From Pleurocapsa sp. MO_226.B13 (GTDB lineage: Bacteria > Cyanobacteriota > Cyanobacteriia > Cyanobacteriales > Xenococcaceae): a DNA stretch of 45,507 nt. Where the stretch lies: assembly GCA_030064795.1 (NCBI GenBank), contig JASJEI010000029.1, positions 1 to 45,507 of the forward strand, given 5' to 3'. Shown here piece after piece: positions 5,593 through 39,464 of the stretch (positions are counted from its first letter, which is position 1; each line of letters starts with the position of its first letter). Position numbers and translations under genes: made by a program. The notes beneath the pieces were generated by a model, which ran no database searches, was not told where the DNA came from, and worked only from the letters and a program-made list of their open reading frames with translations.

Positions 5593-6996
5593 TTACAATT
5601 GTTTTACTTCTGATACCAACTGCGACACGACATCCTGTGCGCTACCAAAGAGCATAGTAGTTTTGTCTTTGTAGAATAGTTCGTTATCCACTCCTGCAAA
5701 ACCAGTCCGCATACTGCGCTTAATCACAATGGCGTGGTTTGCTTTATCTACATCTAGAATGGGCATTCCATAGATAGGGCTGTGATTGTCGTTACGGGCT
5801 GCGGGATTGACTACATCGTTAGCACCGATTACTAAAGCTACGTCAACGCGATCGAATTCAGTATTGATATCATCCATATCGTACAGGCGATCGTAGGGAA
5901 CGTTGGCTTCTGCTAGTAGTACGTTCATATGTCCAGGCATTCTTCCTGCAACGGGGTGAATGGCATATTTAACATCAACTCCCATTTTTTCTAGTTGGGA
6001 GGCTAATTCTCTAACACCGTGTTGCGCTTGAGCTACCGCCATACCGTAACCAGGAACGATTACCACAGAACGAGCGTAACCGAGCATCATTGCTCCTTCT
6101 TCACTGTCAATGGAACGGTAGGTTTTATCGATTTCTGAGCCACCTGCGCCACCGACGGCAACGCTATCACCACCAAAAGCACCAAATAGCACGTTGGTAA
6201 GGGGTCGATTCATAGCCTTACACATGATTTGGGTCAAAATTAACCCCGATGCGCCGACTAATGCTCCAGCCACGATTAGCATACTGTTGCCTAAAATAAA
6301 GCCGACAGCACCAGCAGCTAAACCCGAAAAAGAGTTTAACAGGGAAACAACTACAGGCATATCGCCACCACCGATAGGCAATACGAATAAAGCCCCAAAA
6401 AGTAAAGATATTGCGGTTATAGTGAGAAAAATTGCGGGATTTTCTGGTTTGATTAACAGATAAACGCTACCAGTTAAAAAGCTAGCGAGTAATAAAAAAT
6501 TAAAGGGTTGTTGAAAAGGAAAAGTTACGGGAGAACCTGTAACCAAGCCTTGTAGTTTAGCAAAAGCGAGTAAACTACCTGTGAGAGTTACACCACCAAT
6601 TAATACCCCTAAAATAGCAATAAACGTAGCATCAACAGGCACAGTACCAGTAGTGTTAAGTACTCGCCAGAATTCCCCGACGGCAACCAAAGCCGAAGCA
6701 GCACCACCAACACCATTAAAGATACCTACCATTTGAGGCATATCCGTCATGGCGACTTTCTTGGCTGCGATCGCGCCTATTAGAGAACCAGCAATAATAC
6801 CAACTAAAATCCACTCATAATTAAGAACAGATTGATTTAATAATGTGGCGACAATAGCAATTAACATTCCCACTGCTGCGAGGAAGTTACCCTTACGGGC
6901 GGTAGCTGGCGAACCTAATTTTTTTAAGCCCAAAATAAATAGTGCAGCAGCAGTTAAATAAGCAAGTTCGATTCCCGTATTTAAATATGTACTCAT
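5593..6996 (-). CDS. pntB: NAD(P) transhydrogenase subunit beta
   Basis: The 467-residue membrane protein is the beta subunit of the proton-translocating transhydrogenase, which drives hydride transfer between NADH and NADP+ with the proton gradient. The first about 270 residues form a bundle of hydrophobic helices. The C-terminal domain III binds NADP(H) and shows GYGMAVAQAQHGVREL, HPVAGRMPGHMNVLLAEA, VIGANDVVNPAA and KRSMRTGFAGVDN. The ATG overlaps the end of the preceding small subunit by four bases (6993-6996) and GGAGA lies just upstream, showing translational coupling. Confidence 0.97.
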   Translation of the reverse strand: MSTYLNTGIELAYLTAAALFILGLKKLGSPATARKGNFLAAVGMLIAIVATLLNQSVLNYEWILVGIIAGSLIGAIAAKKVAMTDMPQMVGIFNGVGGAASALVAVGEFWRVLNTTGTVPVDATFIAILGVLIGGVTLTGSLLAFAKLQGLVTGSPVTFPFQQPFNFLLLASFLTGSVYLLIKPENPAIFLTITAISLLFGALFVLPIGGGDMPVVVSLLNSFSGLAAGAVGFILGNSMLIVAGALVGASGLILTQIMCKAMNRPLTNVLFGAFGGDSVAVGGAGGSEIDKTYRSIDSEEGAMMLGYARSVVIVPGYGMAVAQAQHGVRELASQLEKMGVDVKYAIHPVAGRMPGHMNVLLAEANVPYDRLYDMDDINTEFDRVDVALVIGANDVVNPAARNDNHSPIYGMPILDVDKANHAIVIKRSMRTGFAGVDNELFYKDKTTMLFGSAQDVVSQLVSEVKQL

Positions 6997-7286
6997 GATG
7001 CTGTCTCCTTCTTCTTAAACATTTGCAGCATTCTGTCTGTGACCAAAAAACCACCCACAACGTTAACGGTGGCTAAGATGACGGCAATTAAGCCCAAGAT
7101 AGTAGTAACGTTCCATTCCCGTACTCCAGCGATCAGTAATGCACCTACTACGGCGATGCCAGAGATTGCATTAGCACCAGACATCAAGGGAGTGTGTAAG
7201 GTTGGAGGAACTTTATTGATTACCTCAAACCCTACAAATGATGCCAGCACGAAAACAACTAAACCTGTAAGTAATCCTGCTTCCAT
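6993..7286 (-). CDS. pntA2: NAD(P) transhydrogenase subunit alpha part 2 (membrane domain)
   Basis: This 97-residue protein has three hydrophobic segments, with the conserved VFVLASFVGFEVI, SGANAISGIAVVGAL and ILATVNVVGGFLVTDRML. It corresponds to the membrane part of the alpha subunit, which in cyanobacteria is split from the NAD-binding domain I. It sits between the genes for domain I and for beta, overlaps the latter by ATGA, and is separated from the former by a spacer holding a 28-bp palindrome. Confidence 0.95.
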   Translation of the reverse strand: MEAGLLTGLVVFVLASFVGFEVINKVPPTLHTPLMSGANAISGIAVVGALLIAGVREWNVTTILGLIAVILATVNVVGGFLVTDRMLQMFKKKETAS

Positions 7287-7325
7287 TTTTTTTAAATTGA
7301 TTAAATTTGCAAATTGATAATTCTT

Positions 7326-7353
7326 GTAGAGACGCGAAATTTCGCGTCTCTAC
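7326..7353. repeat. Perfect 28-bp palindrome inside the pnt operon
   Basis: GTAGAGACGCGAAA is followed directly by its reverse complement. The TAG stop codon of the alpha-1 gene (7350-7352) lies inside the right arm. A repeat of this type may have inserted at the gene end and donated the stop; as RNA it would form a strong hairpin between the first two cistrons. Confidence 0.8.
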
Positions 7354-8501
7354 TGACTAACCACTAACAACGCCTCTTTTACCCGTTGATTGCGAATTTC
7401 TCCAGCATGAGCAACACAAGCACCACTGGTAATATCATCGTCAAAATTAAGCTGTAGTTCTCCATCTTTAGCTAAATGTTTCACCAAGTTCAAGAGATTT
7501 TTGGCATACATTTGACTGGTATTAATGGGTACAGTGCCAGGAAGATTTATCGGACTGATAATAGTTACCCCTCGATCGCTAATAGTTTTTCCTGCTTCTG
7601 ACGAGGCACAGTTTCCGCCACTTTCGGCTGCGAGATCGACAATTACCGATCCTGGTTTCATTTGGGCTACTGTCTCTTCCCCAATCAATAGTGGTGCTGG
7701 CTTGCCTGGTACTTGGGCGGTAGTGATCACTACATCTGCCTTTGCCACATAGGAACTCAAACCCTGACGAATAAGTTCTTGGGTATCGTTGCCGACTTGT
7801 TTGGCGTAACCTCCTTCGGCTTCGGTGGCTTCTTCGAGGTTGATTTCAATAAAATTACCGCCGACACTTTGCACCTGTTCTTTTACGGTAGAACGAATAT
7901 CAAAGGCATCTACTACTGCACCCAATCTACGGGCTGTGGCGATCGCCTGTAATCCTGCTACCCCCGCACCTAAAACTAATACTTTAGCGGGAGGGATCGT
8001 TCCTGCTGCGGTAGTCATCATCGGGAAAATGCGCGGTAAACTAGCTGCTGCTAGCAATACCGATTTATAACCCGCAATATTGGCTTGGGAAGATAACGCA
8101 TCCATGCTTTGAGCGCGAGTAGTGCGGGGAATTAGCTCCATACTAAAGGCTGTAACCCGCTTCTGAGCGAGCTGTTGAGTGACTGTGGGATCGCCCAAAG
8201 GATTGAGGAAACTAATTAGGGTTGCACCTGGTTTGAGCCAATCAATTTCTGACCAATTATCTCGCGATCCTGGAGGATTAACTTTGAGCAGAATATCTGC
8301 TTCTCCCCAAAGTAAAGCGGGATCGGCAATTACCTTTGCTCCTGCTGCTTCGTAGTCAGAGTCTTGATAACCAGCACCCAAACCAGCACCAGCTTCTACC
8401 CAGACTTCAAAACCTTGTTTGACGAGACGGGATGCAGTATCAGGAACTTGAGCTACCCGAAACTCCCCTAGCTCGTTTTCTTTAGCAACGGCTATTTTCA
8501 T
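7350..8501 (-). CDS. pntA1: NAD(P) transhydrogenase subunit alpha part 1 (NAD-binding domain I)
   Basis: The 383-residue soluble protein matches domain I of transhydrogenase and alanine dehydrogenase relatives. It begins MKIAVAKENELGEFRVAQVP, has the catalytic-loop segment RTTRAQSMDALSSQANIAGY (about 128-147), and a Rossmann NAD site VLVLGAGVAGLQAIATARRLG (about 171-190) closed by the acidic DAFDIR. ATG at 8499-8501 is preceded by AGGAG seven bases upstream. It is the first gene of the operon pntA1-pntA2-pntB. Its C-terminus ends inside a 28-bp palindrome. Confidence 0.97.
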   Translation of the reverse strand: MKIAVAKENELGEFRVAQVPDTASRLVKQGFEVWVEAGAGLGAGYQDSDYEAAGAKVIADPALLWGEADILLKVNPPGSRDNWSEIDWLKPGATLISFLNPLGDPTVTQQLAQKRVTAFSMELIPRTTRAQSMDALSSQANIAGYKSVLLAAASLPRIFPMMTTAAGTIPPAKVLVLGAGVAGLQAIATARRLGAVVDAFDIRSTVKEQVQSVGGNFIEINLEEATEAEGGYAKQVGNDTQELIRQGLSSYVAKADVVITTAQVPGKPAPLLIGEETVAQMKPGSVIVDLAAESGGNCASSEAGKTISDRGVTIISPINLPGTVPINTSQMYAKNLLNLVKHLAKDGELQLNFDDDITSGACVAHAGEIRNQRVKEALLVVSQ

Positions 8502-12857: not shown

Positions 12858-14084
12858 CTACGACATGGATAAATCTGCTAACTTATGTTCGAGTTCAGTT
12901 AGACTCATTTCTTGTTGTTTTGAAGCACCTAAACAGCGAAGATTTAGCTTTTGACTCATGGCTTCCCGCTCACCTACAATGGCAATCAAGGGAATTTTGC
13001 GTTTAGAGAGTTGGCGAATTTTCTTGCTAATTGTCTGGTCTTGGTTGTGAAGCTCTACTCTACCCCCCAGTTCCCTGAGTCGCCAGAAAATTGTTTCTGC
13101 CCAGGCAGATGCTTTATCAGAAATAGTGGCGACTGCGACTTGTGTAGGGGCAGACCAAATAGGAAGAGAACCACCATGATGCTCTAACAAAATACCAATC
13201 CAACGCTCGAACGAACCCAAAATTGCCTGGTGCAGCATAACAGGACGCTCCAATTCTCCCAATTCATTCACAAAAACTAGCTCAAACACTTGAGGGAGAT
13301 TAAAATCGACTTGAATTGTGCCACACTGCCACGAGCGTCCCAACCGATCTTGCAAACTAATTTCGAGCTTTGGCCCATAAAATGCCCCTTCATTCGGAGC
13401 TAATTTATAGCTTTGTCCCAGAGACTCAACCACCTCGATTAACAGGGATTCAGCCCGATCCCAGAGGCGATCTTCACCCAGTCGCTGCGAGGGTCTCAGA
13501 GAAATTTGCAGCGAAAATCCCTCGTAACCAAAAGCAGCATAAACCTGCTGTACCATGTTGAGGAAATTGCTAATTTCACTATGTACGTCAGATTCTCGGC
13601 AAAAAATATGGGCATCATCCTGTACAAATTGTCGCAGTCGCATACATCCCGATAAAGTGCCAGACAGTTCGTTGCGATGACAGATACCAAACTCCATCAA
13701 CCGCATCGGAATTTCTCGATAGCTGCGTTTGTGGGACTGATAAATGGCAATATGGGCGGGGCATGACATCGGCTTCAAGGCATAGTCTGGTTCGATGATA
13801 GATAAGGCTGATTCATCTATATCTGCATCTGCCTTGATGCTACCGACAACAAACATTCCCTGGCGAAATTTTTCCCAGTGTCTCGAACGTTCCCATAACG
13901 AGCGATTGAGGACAACAGGCGATCGCACTTCTTCAAATTCACGAGCTTGATAAACTTGTCGCATATAGTCTTCAATGCTGCGAAAAAGCCGTAGCCCCTG
14001 TGGGTGCCAAAAAACCATTCCTGGACTATGCTCCTCAAAGTGAAATAAGTCCATATCTCTTGCAAGTTCGCGATGATCTAACAT
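12858..14084 (-). CDS. thrS: Threonyl-tRNA synthetase, short form lacking the TGS and editing domains
   Basis: Charges tRNA-Thr with threonine. ATG at 14082-14084 (MLDHRELARDMDLF) is chosen because AGGAG lies seven bases upstream; the 18-codon upstream extension would begin inside a terminator. The 408-residue protein starts at the class II catalytic core, whereas bacterial ThrRS is about 640 residues with N-terminal TGS and editing domains. The three zinc/threonine ligands are present: Cys in KPMSCPAH, His in QDDAHIFC, His in VMLHQAILGSFERW. Motif 2 (FGICHRNELSG) and the C-terminal anticodon-binding domain are intact. Editing-deficient duplicated ThrRS (T2, thrS2) is known in Anabaena, where zinc limitation induces it. 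Here expression appears controlled by a tandem threonine attenuator. Confidence 0.95.
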   Translation of the reverse strand: MLDHRELARDMDLFHFEEHSPGMVFWHPQGLRLFRSIEDYMRQVYQAREFEEVRSPVVLNRSLWERSRHWEKFRQGMFVVGSIKADADIDESALSIIEPDYALKPMSCPAHIAIYQSHKRSYREIPMRLMEFGICHRNELSGTLSGCMRLRQFVQDDAHIFCRESDVHSEISNFLNMVQQVYAAFGYEGFSLQISLRPSQRLGEDRLWDRAESLLIEVVESLGQSYKLAPNEGAFYGPKLEISLQDRLGRSWQCGTIQVDFNLPQVFELVFVNELGELERPVMLHQAILGSFERWIGILLEHHGGSLPIWSAPTQVAVATISDKASAWAETIFWRLRELGGRVELHNQDQTISKKIRQLSKRKIPLIAIVGEREAMSQKLNLRCLGASKQQEMSLTELEHKLADLSMS

Positions 14085-14091
14085 TTTAGTT

Positions 14092-14097
14092 TCTCCT
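14092..14097 (-). promoter_or_regulatory. Ribosome binding site deciding the thrS start
   Basis: AGGAGA on the minus strand ends seven bases before ATG 14084. It lies just past the second terminator, so a transcript that reads through carries it. Confidence 0.85.
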
Positions 14098-14120
14098 AAT
14101 GTATAAGTAATAAAGCAATA

Positions 14121-14149
14121 AAAAACCCTCCAAGCCAAGTTTGGAGGGA
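14121..14149 (-). terminator. Attenuator 2: intrinsic terminator just upstream of thrS
   Basis: On the minus strand CCCTCCAA, a seven-base loop and TTGGAGGG are followed directly by six T. The hairpin has eight perfect pairs. Its 5' arm, extended as CGTCCCTCC, is complementary (8 of 9) to GGAGAGACG at the end of leader ORF 2 (14181-14189), the expected alternative antiterminator. Confidence 0.88.
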
Positions 14150-14177
14150 CGGAAAAATTACCGAGCGCGATCGAGCG

Positions 14178-14255
14178 TCACGTCTCTCCAGGCGTGATGG
14201 TTATGTTGGTGGTAGTGGTGTTGATTGTCAAAGGTATTGTTAGCAACATGGACAT
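14178..14255 (-). CDS. Threonine-rich leader peptide 2 (25 codons)
   Basis: ATG at 14253-14255 opens MSMLLTIPLTIN, TTTT, NITITPGET, stop (TGA 14178-14180). An in-frame Met two codons later is an alternative start. Nine of 25 codons are Thr, including the run ACC ACT ACC ACC, plus six Ile or Asn codons, which also use ANN triplets. The ORF follows attenuator 1 and precedes attenuator 2. A ribosome finishing it would cover GGAGAGACG and let the terminator form; one stalled at the Thr run would leave that segment free. No strong Shine-Dalgarno is seen. Confidence 0.85.
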   Translation of the reverse strand: MSMLLTIPLTINTTTTNITITPGET

Positions 14256-14284
14256 TCTTGGTGACTTTTTAGATATAGATAATG

Positions 14285-14321
14285 AAAAAACATTGCCCCC
14301 CAGGGTTTATCTGGAGGGCAA
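14285..14321 (-). terminator. Attenuator 1: intrinsic terminator between the two leader ORFs
   Basis: On the minus strand TTGCCCTCCAG, a seven-base loop and CTGGGGGGCAA pair over 11 positions (one G-U), followed by TG and six T. The CCCTCC in the 5' arm is complementary to GGAGGG at the end of leader ORF 1, giving the competing antiterminator. Confidence 0.88.
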
Positions 14322-14354
14322 CCAAAGTAATAAGACTAATTTCAGCGCAGTGCC

Positions 14355-14414
14355 TTATAACCCTCCCGTTTGGGTAGTTGTAATGGTGGTAGTAAGGACG
14401 AGTGCGGTTTTCAT
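14355..14414 (-). CDS. Threonine-rich leader peptide 1 (19 codons)
   Basis: ATG at 14412-14414 encodes MKTALVLTTTITTTQTGGL and stops with TAA at 14355-14357. Eight of 19 codons are Thr (ACC, ACT ACC ACC, ACA ACT ACC, ACG). It starts about 25 bases after the predicted transcription start. The last codons contain GGGAGGG, which can pair with the 5' arm of attenuator 1. The arrangement is like that of thrL of enterobacteria, but it sits in front of a tRNA synthetase gene. No strong Shine-Dalgarno is seen, which is common in cyanobacteria. Confidence 0.87.
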   Translation of the reverse strand: MKTALVLTTTITTTQTGGL

Positions 14415-14444
14415 TGTGAAAAAACTTAGCTTCAATATAACCTT

Positions 14445-14472
14445 AATATAGCAATTTTTTAATAGGTGTCAA
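14445..14472 (-). promoter_or_regulatory. Promoter of the thrS leader
   Basis: On the minus strand a perfect -35 TTGACA (14467-14472) and -10 TATATT (14445-14450) are separated by 16 bases. The start of transcription would be near 14438, about 25 bases before leader ORF 1. I see no zinc-repressor-like TGATAAT-N-ATTATCA palindrome next to it. Confidence 0.8.
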
Positions 14473-14671
14473 GTACCCGAGAACAGCCAATGACGATCGC
14501 TGCTTTTCCCTCGGATTCTTCTTAACTCGATTCGGAGTTTTAGAAGTTTTGGTATATTGCGATCGCGTAGTATCTAGCTTTGCAAGATCGCTAATTGAAT
14601 GAAAGTAAAATAGAACCTTTGTAAATTGTCTTGAATTACAAGAACTCCTTAAGCGGAATAGATGACAGGGA

Positions 14672-14881
14672 TTGTTAGATTTTAGCAAAATCAGAAAATT
14701 TAACGAGGACGCAGCGGCTGATTTGTTTGCTGAGATTGGCTATGAATCAGTCACAACGGATGAAATAGCAGCAAGAGCAGATACCTCAGTTGGCGGACTC
14801 TCAAATTTTTCCCCTGATCTTGCCAAAAATATTATATTTTATCTGGGTAGTTATTCCCCAAAGTATTCGAGTTTCAATTAG
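14672..14881 (+). pseudogene. TetR-family regulator remnant (helix-turn-helix only)
   Basis: The frame reads EDAAADLFAEIGYESVTTDE, then IAARADTSVGGLSNFSPD, the N-terminal DNA-binding part of TetR proteins, where the expected text is 'DAAADLFAEIGYE..TT..IAARA.TS.GSLYRFFPDK'. The conserved Tyr/Phe positions of the recognition helix are altered, there is no ATG in place and the ligand-binding domain is replaced by unrelated sequence. It is a decayed fragment. Confidence 0.7.
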
Positions 14882-15244
14882 CTTCAATTCTGAATAAATT
14901 AATCCCTGGCTCACCAGCCCTGGGCTGAATTTTCTGTGCCTATCTATTCTCATGAAGCACCCCTTCATGAGAATGAGGGGACTGAAACGATCGCCCTGGG
15001 CTAAATTTGCCCTCATTCTCCCTCTATCGAGTTGATACTCGTTCTTTTTCTTTATTCCATCTCTTTTTAATAACGATTTCCGATGTATTTCATCTGTGGG
15101 GCTAATGGATGTGGGTTTACAGATTCGACAAAGGCGTGGAATTTCGATCGTGTATGCTACTACATACATCTCATCTTCTTGAGGACACGGGGTCGTAGCT
15201 TCGCTACGACCCGTGAGATGTCCGTGTCGTTGCAACTTACTCAT
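14801..15244 (-). CDS. Doubtful hypothetical ORF
   Basis: ATG at 15242-15244 follows a fair ribosome site (AAAGGAA). The first about 60 codons look coding-like (EDEMYVVAYTIEIPRLCRIC), but the 3' part overlaps the TetR remnant and contains low-complexity spacer DNA. A hairpin repeat with arms GGTCGTAGC and GCTACGACC lies inside it (about 15185-15215), in frame. It could be the tail gene of the operon at 15370-16568, or chance. Confidence 0.3.
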   Translation of the reverse strand: MSKLQRHGHLTGRSEATTPCPQEDEMYVVAYTIEIPRLCRICKPTSISPTDEIHRKSLLKRDGIKKKNEYQLDRGRMRANLAQGDRFSPLILMKGCFMRIDRHRKFSPGLVSQGLIYSELKLIETRILWGITTQIKYNIFGKIRGKI

Positions 15245-34065: not shown

Positions 34066-34113
34066 ACTCAAGATATTGGAAAGATTACTTTATTTACTCG
34101 TAAAAGTTTTTTG

Positions 34114-35514
34114 ATGCTTAATAAAAAGACGTACTTTGAAAGTCAAATTATGTGTTTACATAGAAAGATAGAAGATTTTTTTTTAGATGAACTTAAGAGA
34201 TTAATAGAGTTTCAACAGAACAAAATTATTCGTTTAGAAGTATCTATCGATCATGAGCTAGAACCATTGCAATGGTTAAGTCAACAAAAATCATTGTTTA
34301 AAACTTATTGGTCAGACCGACACAATAGGTTTACAATGGCTGGAATTGGAGCAGCAGATTTAGTATTTAGCCAGGAAAGAGTTAACACCAAATTTCTCTT
34401 TGAACGTTTGAGACAACATCTATCTTGTCAATATTCCCAAGTTCGTTATTATGGAGGAATTAGTTTTCAGCAAACTAAGGAGATTAATTCTCCCTGGCAA
34501 GATTTTGGTAACCATCTTTTTCTTGTCCCTAAGTTTGAAATTTATCGAGATGAATCTGGTACTTATTTCGCCTGTAATTTCCTGGTAAATTGTGACAATA
34601 ATTCTAACGAACAACTACAACAAACTCTACAGGAACTAGCATCAATTAATTTTAGCTTATCTCACCAACAACTAAATACGCCTCAAGTATCTAGGCGGGT
34701 AAATTCTCCTAATCAGTTAGAGTGGTATCGTAATGTTAACAAGGGGTTGACTTATATTAATCAAGAAAACTTAGAAAAAATTGTTTTAGCTAGAAAATCT
34801 GAATTTACAATCGTAAATCCTTGTAAACCAGAACATTTATTAAGTTTAATTCAAAAAGAGCAACACTGTTCTTTTGATTTTTGCTTTCAACCTAATAGAG
34901 ACAAAGGTTTTGTTGGTTGTACACCAGAACGCCTCTATTGGCGTCAATGCAATCAGATTCAAACTGAAGCAATTGCTGGAACTAGCCCCAGGGGTAATTC
35001 TTTCCAAGAAGATGAAAAATTAGCCCAAGAACTGTTATCTTCTCCCAAAGAAATAAGAGAACATCAAGTAGTAGTTAAAAGTCTCCAGGAATCTCTTGCC
35101 AATTTATGTAATCGGATTGATATTGGGAACAAACCAGGTTTGTTACGCCTCAATAAATTACAACATTTACACACTAATTGTTCTGGAATTCTACATCCAG
35201 GAATAGACGATGTGGAAATTATTAATCAACTCCATCCTACCCCAGCAGTAGGCGGTTATCCTCGACAACAAGCATTAGAATTAATCGCTAAACTAGAAAC
35301 TTTTGATCGGGGTTGGTATGGATCTCCTGTAGGATGGGTAGGCTTTGATAGTGCTGAATTTGCAGTAGCAATTCGTTCAGGTTTAATCCATAAAAATAAA
35401 ATCACTTTATTTGCTGGGGCAGGTATTGTTGCAGGTTCTCAACCAGAAACAGAATGGGAAGAATTGGAAAATAAAATTAGCAATTTTCTTCAGATTGTAG
35501 ACCTGGTTGACTGA
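34114..35514 (+). CDS. menF: Isochorismate synthase
   Basis: Converts chorismate to isochorismate, the entry to phylloquinone (vitamin K1) synthesis in cyanobacteria. ATG 34114 gives 466 residues (TTG 34111 directly precedes). The chorismate-binding C-terminal half carries the conserved sequence VLARKSEF, EAIAGTSPRG, EIREHQVVV, LHPTPAVGGYPRQ and GAGIVAGSQPETEWEE with the Mg-binding Glu residues. The lysine expected as general base lies in EKIVLARK. The N-terminal half is more variable. It is the only intact gene of its small cluster. Confidence 0.92.
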   Translation: MLNKKTYFESQIMCLHRKIEDFFLDELKRLIEFQQNKIIRLEVSIDHELEPLQWLSQQKSLFKTYWSDRHNRFTMAGIGAADLVFSQERVNTKFLFERLRQHLSCQYSQVRYYGGISFQQTKEINSPWQDFGNHLFLVPKFEIYRDESGTYFACNFLVNCDNNSNEQLQQTLQELASINFSLSHQQLNTPQVSRRVNSPNQLEWYRNVNKGLTYINQENLEKIVLARKSEFTIVNPCKPEHLLSLIQKEQHCSFDFCFQPNRDKGFVGCTPERLYWRQCNQIQTEAIAGTSPRGNSFQEDEKLAQELLSSPKEIREHQVVVKSLQESLANLCNRIDIGNKPGLLRLNKLQHLHTNCSGILHPGIDDVEIINQLHPTPAVGGYPRQQALELIAKLETFDRGWYGSPVGWVGFDSAEFAVAIRSGLIHKNKITLFAGAGIVAGSQPETEWEELENKISNFLQIVDLVD

Positions 35515-38090: not shown

Positions 38091-39464
38091 ATGATACAAA
38101 ATGGAGTTAAACATAACGAGCTAAGACAGTTAGTTAGATCGCAATTAGAACTATTACTAGAGAGTGGCAATTTAGAAGGAGCAAAGTCACTATTAATTCC
38201 CGTACAGCCAGTAGATATAGCAGAAGCCATTGAGGGTTTACCAGAATCGAACCAGTTAATTGCTTTTCGTTTGCTGTCTAAGGCAGAAGCGATCGAAGTA
38301 TACGAGTATCTCAATAGTGATGTCCAACAGGCACTAATTCAAGAGTTTAAACGCCAAGAAGTATTAGATATTGTTGATAAAATGTCTCCTGACGATCGCG
38401 CTAAAATGTTCGACGAGCTTCCTGCTAAAGTAGTACGTCGTCTACTGTCACAGTTAAGTCCAGGAGAACGCCAAGCCACAGCTATTTTACTCGGTTACGA
38501 AGAGGATACGGCAGGGCGAATTATGACCCCTGAGTATATCTCTTTAAAAGAGAATTTAACTGTCAGCCAAGCTCTAGAAAGAATTAGAAGTTTAGCCAAT
38601 GCTTCGGAAGTTGTTTATTATCTTTATGTTACCGATACATCTCGACAACTTACAGGAATTGTCTCCTTGCGGGATCTAGTCCTGGCTGCACCCGATACCA
38701 CCCTGGCAGAAATTATGACTCGTGATGTGGTGTTTGTTCATACCGATACCGATCAAGAAGAAGTGGCTCGGACTATTCAACGTTACGATATTGTAGCCGT
38801 ACCCGTAGTCGATCGTGAAGAAAGATTAGTCGGGGTGGTTACTGTTGATGATGTTATCGATATTATCGAACGGGAAGCTACCGAAGATATTTATGCTTTG
38901 GGTGGGGTACAATCGGATCGCGATAATTATTTTCAAACTAACTTGTTAACGGTAGCTCGCCGTAGAGTAGTTTGGTTGTTTGTTTTATTACTTACTAATA
39001 CCGTTACTGGCGCGATCATTCGTTCTCAAGAATCACTCTTACAACAAGTAGTGATCTTAGCTGCTTTTATTCCCTTATTGACTGGTACGGGGGGAAATGT
39101 AGGCGCGCAGTCTTCTACAGTAGTGATTCGGGGTTTAAACACTGAAGAAATTCAAAACATGGGAGCAGGAAAAGTGATTTTTCGCGAAGCTGCTGCGGGA
39201 ATTCTACTAGGCTTAATTTTAGGCTCGATGGCAACAGTTTGGGCTTATTTTCTGCAAGGAAATTTAGCTGTAGCCACTTCTGTAGGAATTAGCTTAATTG
39301 CGATCGCTCTTTTAGCTTCTGTTGCTGGCTCGGCTCTACCCTTTTTGTTTCGTTCCCTCAGCTTAGATCCTGCTTTGATGTCTGCCCCCTTTATTACTAC
39401 CGCCGTTGATGTTTTAGGAGTCTTGATCTATTTCCAGATCGCTAGAGTCATTTTGGGTTTGTAG
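38091..39464 (+). CDS. mgtE: Magnesium transporter MgtE
   Basis: The 457-residue Mg2+ channel has an N-terminal MgtE domain (about 25-125; DIAEAIEGLPESNQL, MSPDDRAKMFDELPAK), two CBS domains (about 130-255; AGRIMTPEYISL, LAEIMTRDVVFV, VGVVTVDDVIDII), a connecting helix and five transmembrane segments. The pore helix reads PLLTGTGGNVGAQSSTVVIRG (split: PLLTGTGGNVGAQ and SSTVVIRG), with the conserved GNxGxQ. The final SAPFITTAVDVLGVLIYF holds the conserved Asp of the ion path. Confidence 0.96.
   Translation: MIQNGVKHNELRQLVRSQLELLLESGNLEGAKSLLIPVQPVDIAEAIEGLPESNQLIAFRLLSKAEAIEVYEYLNSDVQQALIQEFKRQEVLDIVDKMSPDDRAKMFDELPAKVVRRLLSQLSPGERQATAILLGYEEDTAGRIMTPEYISLKENLTVSQALERIRSLANASEVVYYLYVTDTSRQLTGIVSLRDLVLAAPDTTLAEIMTRDVVFVHTDTDQEEVARTIQRYDIVAVPVVDREERLVGVVTVDDVIDIIEREATEDIYALGGVQSDRDNYFQTNLLTVARRRVVWLFVLLLTNTVTGAIIRSQESLLQQVVILAAFIPLLTGTGGNVGAQSSTVVIRGLNTEEIQNMGAGKVIFREAAAGILLGLILGSMATVWAYFLQGNLAVATSVGISLIAIALLASVAGSALPFLFRSLSLDPALMSAPFITTAVDVLGVLIYFQIARVILGL

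Follow-up and report, generated by a model that had tools for sequence, protein, structure and literature searches.

In Pleurocapsa sp. MO_226.B13, the gene thrS for a short threonyl-tRNA synthetase (ThrRS) is preceded by two leader ORFs in tandem, both rich in Thr codons and each with a predicted intrinsic terminator behind it. We propose, with a probability of about 0.85, that they constitute two ribosome-mediated transcription attenuators in series, which would turn thrS on when charged tRNA-Thr is scarce. The elements concerned, located on the minus strand of the 45,507-nt stretch of DNA that was analysed (the window), are as follows.

14467..14472, minus strand: predicted -35 hexamer TTGACA (11/12 consensus matches, jointly with the -10)
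14445..14453, minus strand: predicted extended -10, TGCTATATT (9/9 bases the same in the window, pREC1 and pREC2)
14355..14414, minus strand: leader ORF1, MKTALVLTTTITTTQTGGL (19 codons, 8 Thr)
14361..14366, minus strand: antiterminator segment 1, GGAGGG, within the final codons of ORF1
14330..14358, minus strand: inner helix of antiterminator 1 (14358-14352 with 14336-14330; 7 pairs, one of them G.U)
14293..14321, minus strand: predicted terminator 1 hairpin (11 pairs, 7-nt loop, then U6)
14178..14255, minus strand: leader ORF2, MSMLLTIPLTINTTTTNITITPGET (25 codons, 9 Thr, four consecutive)
14181..14189, minus strand: antiterminator segment 2, GGAGAGACG, at the end of ORF2
14126..14148, minus strand: predicted terminator 2 hairpin (8 pairs, 7-nt loop, then U6)
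14093..14097, minus strand: AGGAG, the likely thrS ribosome binding site, outside both hairpins (5/5 bases the same in pREC1/2)
12858..14084, minus strand: thrS, short ThrRS (ATG at 14084-14082; 408 aa)

An earlier sequence-only reading had given this order of promoter-like hexamers, ORF1, terminator 1, ORF2, terminator 2, AGGAG and thrS ATG, and it proved right base for base; a recount of the Thr codons, including the four in a row in ORF2, gave the same figures. TATATT (14450-14445) is preceded by TG, forming an extended -10, and lies 16 nt from TTGACA (14472-14467). The arms of terminator 1 occupy 14321-14311 and 14303-14293, and those of terminator 2 occupy 14148-14141 and 14133-14126. In each ORF, the Thr run is followed, in the final codons, by a GGAG(G/A)G segment complementary to the next terminator's 5' arm. 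Specifically, the GGGAGGG at 14367-14361, which had been described as complementary to CCCTCC of terminator 1, pairs with it at 6/6 positions through its GGAGGG, and the pairing proposed between the end of ORF2 and terminator 2 was recovered as 8/9 pairs, with one A.C mismatch, between GGAGAGACG (14189-14181) and CGTCCCTCC (14151-14143). The short ORFs ahead of thrS are rich in the codons tied to its product (8/19 and 9/25), and two predicted U6 hairpins of the intrinsic type stand between leader ORF and gene. No clear Shine-Dalgarno sequence was seen for ORF1 or ORF2 in the window.

Folding with a stalled ribosome yielded the expected switch in both modules and in three copies of the leader, those of the window and of the Acaryochloris plasmids pREC1 and pREC2, at the stage before the 3' arm of the terminator is made. 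With the ribosome held at the Thr run, the segment was computed to be free and to pair with the 5' arm ahead of 3' arm synthesis, and with the ribosome past the run, the segment was covered and the terminator folded, so that at this stage a ribosome-dependent antiterminator excluding the terminator was found in both modules of all three copies. At equilibrium, terminator 1 beat antiterminator 1 (0.92-1.0) in all three copies at any ribosome position, and module 1 could therefore work only through kinetic trapping. For module 2 of the window, the equilibrium share of the antiterminator was 0.17-0.49 with ribosomes up to codon 15 and 0 from codon 16 on; in pREC1/2, antiterminator 2 won for most placements of the ribosome within the Thr run or ahead of it, falling in pREC1 to 0.01-0.12 at codons 14-16.

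When Thr-tRNA is ample, the ribosome would reach the stop codon and RNA polymerase would halt at terminator 1, a polymerase slipping past it being halted at terminator 2; when Thr-tRNA is scarce, both terminators would be bypassed and thrS read. The attenuation interpretation put forward in the sequence-only reading is supported, and we infer, as that reading did, that uncharged tRNA would be the inducer and that attenuators in series would multiply the response. If the switch works as predicted, transcription-translation coupling in cyanobacteria would be so tight that the ribosome's position could steer RNA polymerase, and a tandem responding twice to the same signal would yield a steep, low-leak response.

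We found the complete double leader on two Acaryochloris marina plasmids, pREC1 and pREC2, in each case ahead of a ThrRS 87-88% identical. ORF1 of both plasmids keeps 8 Thr, begins with GTG and is one codon longer, and ORF2 has 8 Thr in pREC1 and 11 in pREC2, eight of the latter being consecutive. In the three DNA copies, both ORFs retain their start, stop and frame, and most Thr positions remain Thr, with frequent synonymous changes and a mix of ACC, ACT, ACA and ACG codons; the two indels within ORFs are of 3 nt each, and the two internal ones outside ORFs are of 1 nt each. Among the pairing elements, segment 1 (GGAGGG) is the same in pREC1 and pREC2, the terminator 1 arms are identical at 22/22 bases (loop, only 3-4/7), and all 8 pairs of terminator 2 are the same in the three copies (loop, 3/7). 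Antiterminator 2, at the positions equivalent to 14189-14181 and 14151-14143, forms 9/9 pairs in pREC1/2, one of them G.U. The U tracts and the -10 are invariant, the linker joining the modules keeps 17-18/28 bases and spacer 2 keeps 15/25. The -35 hexamer is not conserved, having just 2-3/6 bases in common with the Acaryochloris copies, and no promoter-like site above threshold was found in pREC1, the plasmid copy scanned. Of the covarying terminator/antiterminator pairs anticipated from the window alone, a single instance was seen in these three sequences, two of which are close: the outermost pair of the antiterminator 1 inner helix, whose 7 pairs (one G.U) are possible in all three copies, is A-U in the window and G-C in pREC1/2, both sides having changed, and the remaining pairs are invariant or altered on one side. 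Upstream of the neighbouring cysS on pREC1, a three-frame translation inspected by eye contained no Cys leader.

The double leader is also recorded, as antisense shadows, in 13 further protein clusters, where each Val marks a Thr codon. The Thr run of ORF2 is visible in 13/13 of them and that of ORF1 in 5/5 spanning it (P0122-P0126), run length differing between copies among both the DNA copies and the shadows. The Gly-Gly of segment 1 is kept in 5/6 shadows covering the segment in the decoded frame, P0126 being changed. The sequence-only reading had been staked on conservation of the Thr codons and alternative pairings in orthologous leaders, and such conservation was observed in the pREC1/2 DNA and the 13 shadows, the exceptions being P0126 and the A.C mismatch in antiterminator 2 of the window. 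In addition, terminator 2 is read through in N-extended ThrRSs from Moorena, Crocosphaera and one JGI entry, its coding shadow being recognizable by eye in P0015, P0027 and P0084; inspection of the N-extended P0054 (Crinalium) showed no terminator-2 pattern.

It is very unlikely that the arrangement arose by chance, since ORF1 and ORF2 are the only 2 of the 802 short ORFs in the window (12-45 aa, both strands) with at least 8 Thr, and since 6 of the 8 modules consisting of a residue-rich ORF followed by a terminator in 769,064 bp are Thr leaders of thrS, the other two being Gln-rich and Arg-rich. All ORF starts were tried in the latter scan; the longest ORF2 frame is 47 aa in pREC1 and 48 aa in pREC2. 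When the leader was resampled 20,000 times under a first-order Markov model, two sense-strand ORFs with at least 8 Thr never appeared together, and at least one appeared in 1.1% of the resamplings. Given a local Thr frequency of 5.55%, the binomial tails for the Thr content of ORF1 and ORF2 are 4e-6 and 5e-6, respectively. Terminator-like sites (3, vs 1.0, sd 1.1, in shuffles of 13900-14900) and promoter-like sites (3, vs 2.3, sd 1.4) are not rare alone. The complementarity of antiterminator 2 was reached by 4 and 2 of 1000 shuffles, and that of antiterminator 1 by 31.

The product of thrS carries only PF00587 and PF03129, that is, the catalytic and anticodon domains, and aligns to residues 243-628 of the ThrRS 1qf6; with the TGS and editing domains absent and the match starting at 243, it is not a full-length bacterial ThrRS with an editing domain. 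Lengths of the 120 listed relatives range from 325 to 455 aa. The window enzyme has 7 Thr residues in 408 aa, and the family is Thr-poor, with 1.5% Thr vs 3.9%, the control being 80 proteobacterial cores and 10 window ORFs; the family set comprised 115 cyanobacterial proteins, 5 of the 120 having been dropped by a 395-460 aa filter, and it included N-extended entries, whose Thr counts are therefore raised. Plain Thr-to-Ser replacement is only part of the change, since at the 8 columns with Thr in at least half of the proteobacterial cores, the 920 cyanobacterial cells hold 232 Ser, 323 Val and 121 Thr. Such a short ThrRS may be an auxiliary enzyme made if the main ThrRS fails or the supply of Thr gives out, and its Thr-poor sequence would permit its translation under Thr-tRNA scarcity. 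Regulation and protein composition would thereby be united, the sensor codons and the product both appearing adapted to scarce Thr-tRNA. With moderate confidence, we suggest that cyanobacteria have leader-peptide attenuation, here in a double-locked form, with two Thr-specific attenuators in series before a starvation-proof emergency ThrRS that has lost the editing domain and most of its own Thr, is carried on chromosomes and conjugative plasmids, and would be made only when tRNA-Thr charging fails.

Searches against known RNA families gave no support for a T-box riboswitch, no Rfam family reaching its gathering threshold in the window and no T-box appearing among the 2 leader matches at E<=10. 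Nor was the Rfam Thr_leader (RF00506) among the leader matches of the window, its cut-off of 55 bits not being reached; over module 2 of pREC2 it scored 17.2 bits (E 1.2), as one of 9 sub-threshold matches, mostly to unrelated families. In a scan of genome contigs for the ThrRS, the loci listed, at least 80 and 43-49% identical, had titles indicative of Proteobacteria or, once, of a plain 'bacterium', with no cyanobacterial chromosome among them. Viral contigs gave 58 loci at <=50% identity and 0 matches to the terminator-1 pattern. Among the genomes around G001, which are not informative on cyanobacteria, 59/60 matched at E<=0.001, the best places being 44-50% identical, and 0/399 matched at E<=1e-140.

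Several other explanations of the leader were weighed. A single working attenuator, probably module 2, with the other terminator serving as a constitutive insulator next to a decayed or redundant leader ORF, would agree with the equilibrium folds, in which terminator 1 prevails in all three copies and antiterminator 2 wins at most upstream or in-run positions in pREC1/2, and with the shuffles, in which the complementarity of antiterminator 1 recurred in 31/1000 against 2-4/1000 for antiterminator 2. We nevertheless regard it as unlikely, given that ORF1 keeps 8 Thr in three DNA copies and its Thr run in the 5 covering shadows, that the segment, arms and U tract of module 1 are conserved as well as those of module 2, and that the sole both-sides change falls in the inner helix of antiterminator 1. 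We give hardly any credence to the view that no sensing is involved, with drifting ACY trinucleotide repeats making up the Thr runs and ordinary terminators, formed by the hairpins, insulating thrS. Run length does differ between copies, as in a slipping repeat, but the codons are a mix of all four Thr triplets, both ORFs keep start, stop and frame in three DNA copies, two such ORFs occur, each upstream of a ThrRS, and the ORF ends are complementary to terminator arms; moreover, terminators placed between the gene's own promoter and its start could only silence thrS.

Control might instead be translational, the hairpins governing how ribosomes reach thrS, as happens with the thrS operator of E. 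coli, and by eye the thrS AGGAG could pair with a free CTCC of the terminator 2 5' arm; however, U6 follows each of the hairpins, and AGGAG lies outside both. In E. coli, ThrRS binds its own leader, for which its N-terminal domains are needed, whereas the window enzyme, with PF00587 and PF03129 only and a 1qf6 match from residue 243, has no such domains, and we consider this operator type highly improbable here. Some peptidyl-transferase inhibitors stall ribosomes at Ala, Ser or Thr, and the leaders could conceivably sense such an inhibitor rather than Thr-tRNA charging. An antibiotic-sensing uORF has been described (PMC12121999), which also speaks for this idea. A Thr-poor product that charges tRNA-Thr suits a charging signal and would be unexpected for an antibiotic sensor, so we find inhibitor sensing scarcely probable.

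Attenuators of amino-acid operons combine a codon-rich short ORF with mutually exclusive antiterminator and terminator hairpins, ribosome position being the switch. Ribosome-mediated attenuation of this kind is described for E. coli trp (PMC3641672). The Pleurocapsa leader, read as tandem attenuators, resembles E. coli trp and thr in these three respects but differs in that two full modules serving one amino acid follow each other, in that the target gene encodes a tRNA synthetase and the host is a cyanobacterium, and in that the antiterminator segment is placed inside the ORF's final codons, where, to judge from the folding, the ribosome itself would hide it. Putzer 1992 reportedly described several attenuator units in series in the leader of Bacillus subtilis thrZ, a second ThrRS gene, but those are said to be T-boxes that bind tRNA directly, whereas no T-box match was obtained here. 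A Streptomyces auxiliary antibiotic-resistant TrpRS is likewise said (Vecchione and Sello 2010) to be under ribosome-mediated attenuation, a parallel as a second tRNA synthetase so controlled, although for a TrpRS and in an actinobacterium. Two short ORFs acting as tandem attenuators in one leader are also known from Salmonella mgtCBR, in which the signals differ (ATP and proline) and the hairpins are unlike intrinsic terminators, whereas both ORFs here are Thr-rich and both hairpins intrinsic-type (PMC3641672).

No cyanobacterial thrS leader or attenuator was found among the titles and abstract openings listed from the open-licence literature, a prior description in Lopatovskaya 2010 being possible, and a 2016 paper speaks of no reliable data for this type of control in cyanobacteria. 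The novelty here lies in the tandem arrangement, in the phylum and in the short, Thr-poor enzyme, and is limited to these because a Thr-containing leader peptide has already been predicted upstream of thrS in Streptomyces lividans (PMC8079986). That thrL-thrS has a single leader, containing two Thr, and lacks a clear Rho-independent terminator, whereas two leaders (8 and 9 Thr) and two terminators are predicted here. A duplicated cyanobacterial ThrRS whose second copy is conditional is already known from the T1/T2 pair of Anabaena; T2 is under the control of the Zur repressor and possesses an editing domain, whereas the window enzyme lacks that domain and is preceded by leader ORFs (PMC4787780).

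Inspection of the sequence confirmed each of the leader elements upstream of the threonyl-tRNA synthetase (ThrRS) gene, thrS, where the sequence-only reading had placed them:

14472-14084, minus strand: promoter-like pair, ORF1, hairpin 1, ORF2, hairpin 2, AGGAG and the thrS ATG, as read from the sequence
Minus strand: ORF1, 19 codons with 8 Thr, then an 11-pair hairpin with U6
Minus strand: ORF2, 25 codons with 9 Thr, then an 8-pair hairpin with U6
Minus strand, downstream of hairpin 2: AGGAG, then the ATG of the ThrRS gene

This double leader is real and conserved and, judging from its sequence, very probably functional. We found the whole of it on pREC1 and pREC2, two plasmids of a single strain, Acaryochloris marina MBIC10699, which are typed as conjugative and each carry one thrS, with products sharing 88% and 87% identity, respectively, with the ThrRS of the window. 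In pREC1, the short thrS adjoins a divergent cysS. ORF1 has a GTG start and encodes VKTALVLTSTTTTTTHIGGL in pREC1 and VKIALVLTSTTTTTTHTGGL in pREC2, and ORF2 encodes MPILLTMSLAMNTATATTTITPGGT (8 Thr) and MPILLTMSLAMNTTTTTTTTITPGGT (11 Thr, eight consecutive), respectively. Between the window and the plasmids, identity was complete in the arms of terminator 1 (22/22 bases), the pairs of terminator 2 (8/8), the U-tract stretches (9/9 and 7/7), the extended -10 (9/9) and AGGAG (5/5); it was 29/33 in spacer 1, which includes part of antiterminator 1, 51-52/60 in ORF1, 61-63/78 in ORF2, 17-18/28 in the inter-module linker, 15/25 in spacer 2, 14/21 in the stretch upstream of AGGAG, 3-4/7 in both terminator loops and 2-3/6 in the -35. 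Two indels within the ORFs were of 3 nt and two internal ones elsewhere of 1 nt. Since pREC1 and pREC2 are closely similar, the DNA conservation is mainly one comparison.

At least eight Thr were present in 2 of the 802 short ORFs of the window (12-45 aa, both strands), both being the leader ORFs, and first-order Markov resampling of the leader (n=20,000) gave at least one sense-strand ORF with at least eight Thr in 1.1% of cases and two in 0. We scanned 769,064 bp (the window, pREC1 and pREC2, with the plasmids cut into 20-kb pieces) for ORFs of 12-40 codons in which any one residue made up at least 30% with seven or more copies, followed by an intrinsic-type terminator. Eight such modules were found, with 79 terminator-like sites; six were Thr-rich, all in thrS leaders, and the remaining two were Gln-rich and Arg-rich. 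Promoter hexamers alone were nothing unusual, with 3 promoter-like sites at 13900-14900 of the window versus 2.3 (sd 1.4) in shuffles and 0 versus 1.4 in pREC1; for terminator-like sites, the counts were 3 versus 1.0 (sd 1.1) and 2 versus 0.5, respectively.

In the proposed switch, a ribosome stalled at the Thr codons would let an antiterminator form and thrS be read. Antiterminator 1 consists of GGAGGG (14366-14361) paired with CCCTCC (14318-14313) plus a 7-pair inner helix, the outermost pair of which, A-U in the window, is G-C in both plasmids, the sole change on both sides of a pair that we saw. In antiterminator 2, GGAG(A/G)GACG pairs with (C/T)GTCCCTCC, at 8/9 positions in the window (one A.C mismatch) and 9/9 in the plasmids (one G.U). 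Shuffled ORF ends and spacers reached the observed pairing of module 1 in 31/1000 cases for the window and pREC2 each, and that of module 2 in 4/1000 (window) and 2/1000 (pREC2). We then folded the free RNA with a ribosome moved along each ORF, covering 12 nt past the first A-site base. For ribosomes with their A site on the Thr run, at codons 8-13 (window) or 8-14 (plasmids) of ORF1 and 13-19 (window, pREC1) or 13-20 (pREC2) of ORF2, the computed probability that the antiterminator segment pairs with the terminator 5' arm, as long as the 3' arm is not yet made, was 0.68-1.0. From codon 14 or 15 of ORF1 and codon 21 or 22 of ORF2 onward, the segment was concealed (0-0.01) and the terminator folded, with computed values of 0.92-1.0 for terminator 1 and 0.68-0.75 for terminator 2, 0.75 being the maximum of the latter measure, with two scored arm bases outside the stem. 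Thus, the Thr run ends at about the required flip point. At equilibrium in the full transcript, terminator 1 prevailed in all three copies at every ribosome position, so that kinetic trapping would be needed for module 1 to work. For module 2, the equilibrium outcome in the window was mixed, with an antiterminator value of 0.17-0.49 through codon 15 and 0 from codon 16; antiterminator 2 was favoured through codon 13 and at 17, but not at 14-16, in pREC1, and through codon 19 in pREC2. The Rfam model Thr_leader (RF00506) spans module 2 of pREC2 (L144, 4846-4962) at full length with 17.2 bits (E 1.2); this match, one of nine below the 55-bit cut-off, is probably due to chance, or to convergence through the combination of Thr codons and a hairpin.

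A long open frame lies opposite the leader (14194-14451, plus strand of the window) and is mis-annotated as a protein by gene callers; in public gene sets, the antisense strand of the leader appears as a Val-rich protein. In the register of these shadow proteins, each Val codon (GTN) marks a Thr codon (ACN) in the leader frame, regardless of its neighbours. The shadows can be used to locate poly-Thr leaders on contigs known from proteins alone, as these contigs are. A search with the antisense frame gave five besides the window's own and a profile search eight more, making 13 clusters (P0122-P0134) on contigs differing in size from the window's, some of which may be of the same species (P0127 is the start of P0123). 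Thr runs in ORF2 were found in 13/13, with at least 6 or 7 consecutive Thr in P0122-P0128 and P0131-P0134, at least 4 in P0129 and, in P0130, at least 3 and 5 on either side of a single different codon, many shadows starting within the run; five (P0122-P0126) cover the ORF1 run, with 6-8 consecutive Thr. Frame-shifted leaders could hardly be found via shadows, so these in-frame run lengths are not independent evidence, which comes instead from the three DNA copies. The terminator-1 stretch reads LPPRVRLEGN in 10 of the 13 and LPSRQTLEGN in P0129, and is in a different frame in P0133 and P0134. Both P0129 and P0133 have Ser for Pro in the 3' arm; by hand deduction, a TCN codon here would change U.G to U-A, the A facing a 5'-arm U, which is fixed in P0129, by a Glu codon, though not in P0133. 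The Gly-Gly of antiterminator 1 is the same in P0122-P0125 and P0129, and is Gly-Val in P0126, and the residues of P0134, worked by hand, imply G-C at the outermost inner pair. Three shadows (P0128, P0132 and P0134) reach the end of ORF2, reading T-P-G-G-T or T-S-G-G-T and then a possible stop codon. P0134 and the ThrRS P0022 have the same source and contigs both 4140 long, suggesting that thrS lies downstream of this leader, and we infer the same for the remaining shadow contigs. By eye, spurious N-terminal extensions read through terminator 2 in the ThrRS entries P0015 (Moorena), P0027 (Crocosphaera) and P0084 (JGI), and the corresponding frame of pREC1 and pREC2 also reads across it. The extension of P0054 (Crinalium) showed no terminator-2 pattern by eye, and some family members may thus have a different leader or none.

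The window ThrRS has 408 residues and Pfam domains PF00587 and PF03129 only, and aligns with residues 243 to 628 of ThrRS 1qf6; it therefore has neither the N-terminal TGS nor the editing domain. It has the motifs aligning with KPMNCPGHI, DDGHVFC and MLHRAI of a solved ThrRS, which carry the zinc ligands Cys, His and His. The 119 relatives listed besides it share 61-95% identity with it, and all those bearing organism names are cyanobacteria, including Acaryochloris, Moorena, Crocosphaera, Nodosilinea, Leptolyngbya and Nostoc. One listed protein, P0118 (358 aa), has a ParA-like N-terminus fused to the C-terminal portion of the short ThrRS, possibly through a chimeric contig. By the reasoning of cognate bias, an enzyme needed when Thr-tRNA is scarce is expected to be Thr-poor, which would apply to the short ThrRS. 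Of the 408 codons of the window thrS, 7 encode Thr, versus 243 of 4,377 (5.55%) in ten other window ORFs. In 115 of the family's 120 listed proteins, which are one lineage and not independent cases, Thr made up 1.49%, versus 3.93% of the matching core of 80 ThrRSs, all proteobacterial (median 6 per protein, range 2-21, versus 15, range 8-23); among the 20 residues, depletion was strongest for Thr (ratio 0.38) and enrichment strongest for Ser (1.79). The 19 Thr codons of the three thrS genes are 14 ACA, 4 ACT, 1 ACG and 0 ACC, and ACC accounts for 72/243 in the ten window ORFs and 8/17 in the two leader ORFs, which weakly suggests that the leaders use a Thr codon that thrS avoids, the hint being weak because the thrS genes are homologous.

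The leader has the sequence-level features of the leader-peptide attenuator class and can be assigned to it as a putative member; the mechanism itself is classical. The Bacillus subtilis thrZ leader is among the known systems to compare it with. In the open-licence literature searched, we found no thrS leader described from cyanobacteria and no established leader-peptide attenuation for them; a double same-signal leader before a Thr-poor, editing-free ThrRS in this group is thus of interest. The main text of a 2010 screen of premature terminators (PMC2965389) contains no word starting with "cyanobacteri". Other papers describe a Thr leader predicted before thrS in Streptomyces lividans (PMC8079986), the ThrRS pair T1/T2 of Anabaena (PMC4787780), and tandem attenuators with two different signals (PMC3641672), whereas both modules of the window leader would answer to the same signal, Thr. 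The window also carries genes for transhydrogenase subunits (5593-8501, minus), a chorismate-binding enzyme (34111-35514, plus) and an MgtE transporter (38091-39464, plus), suggesting that its short thrS may be chromosomal, unlike the plasmid copies of pREC1 and pREC2.
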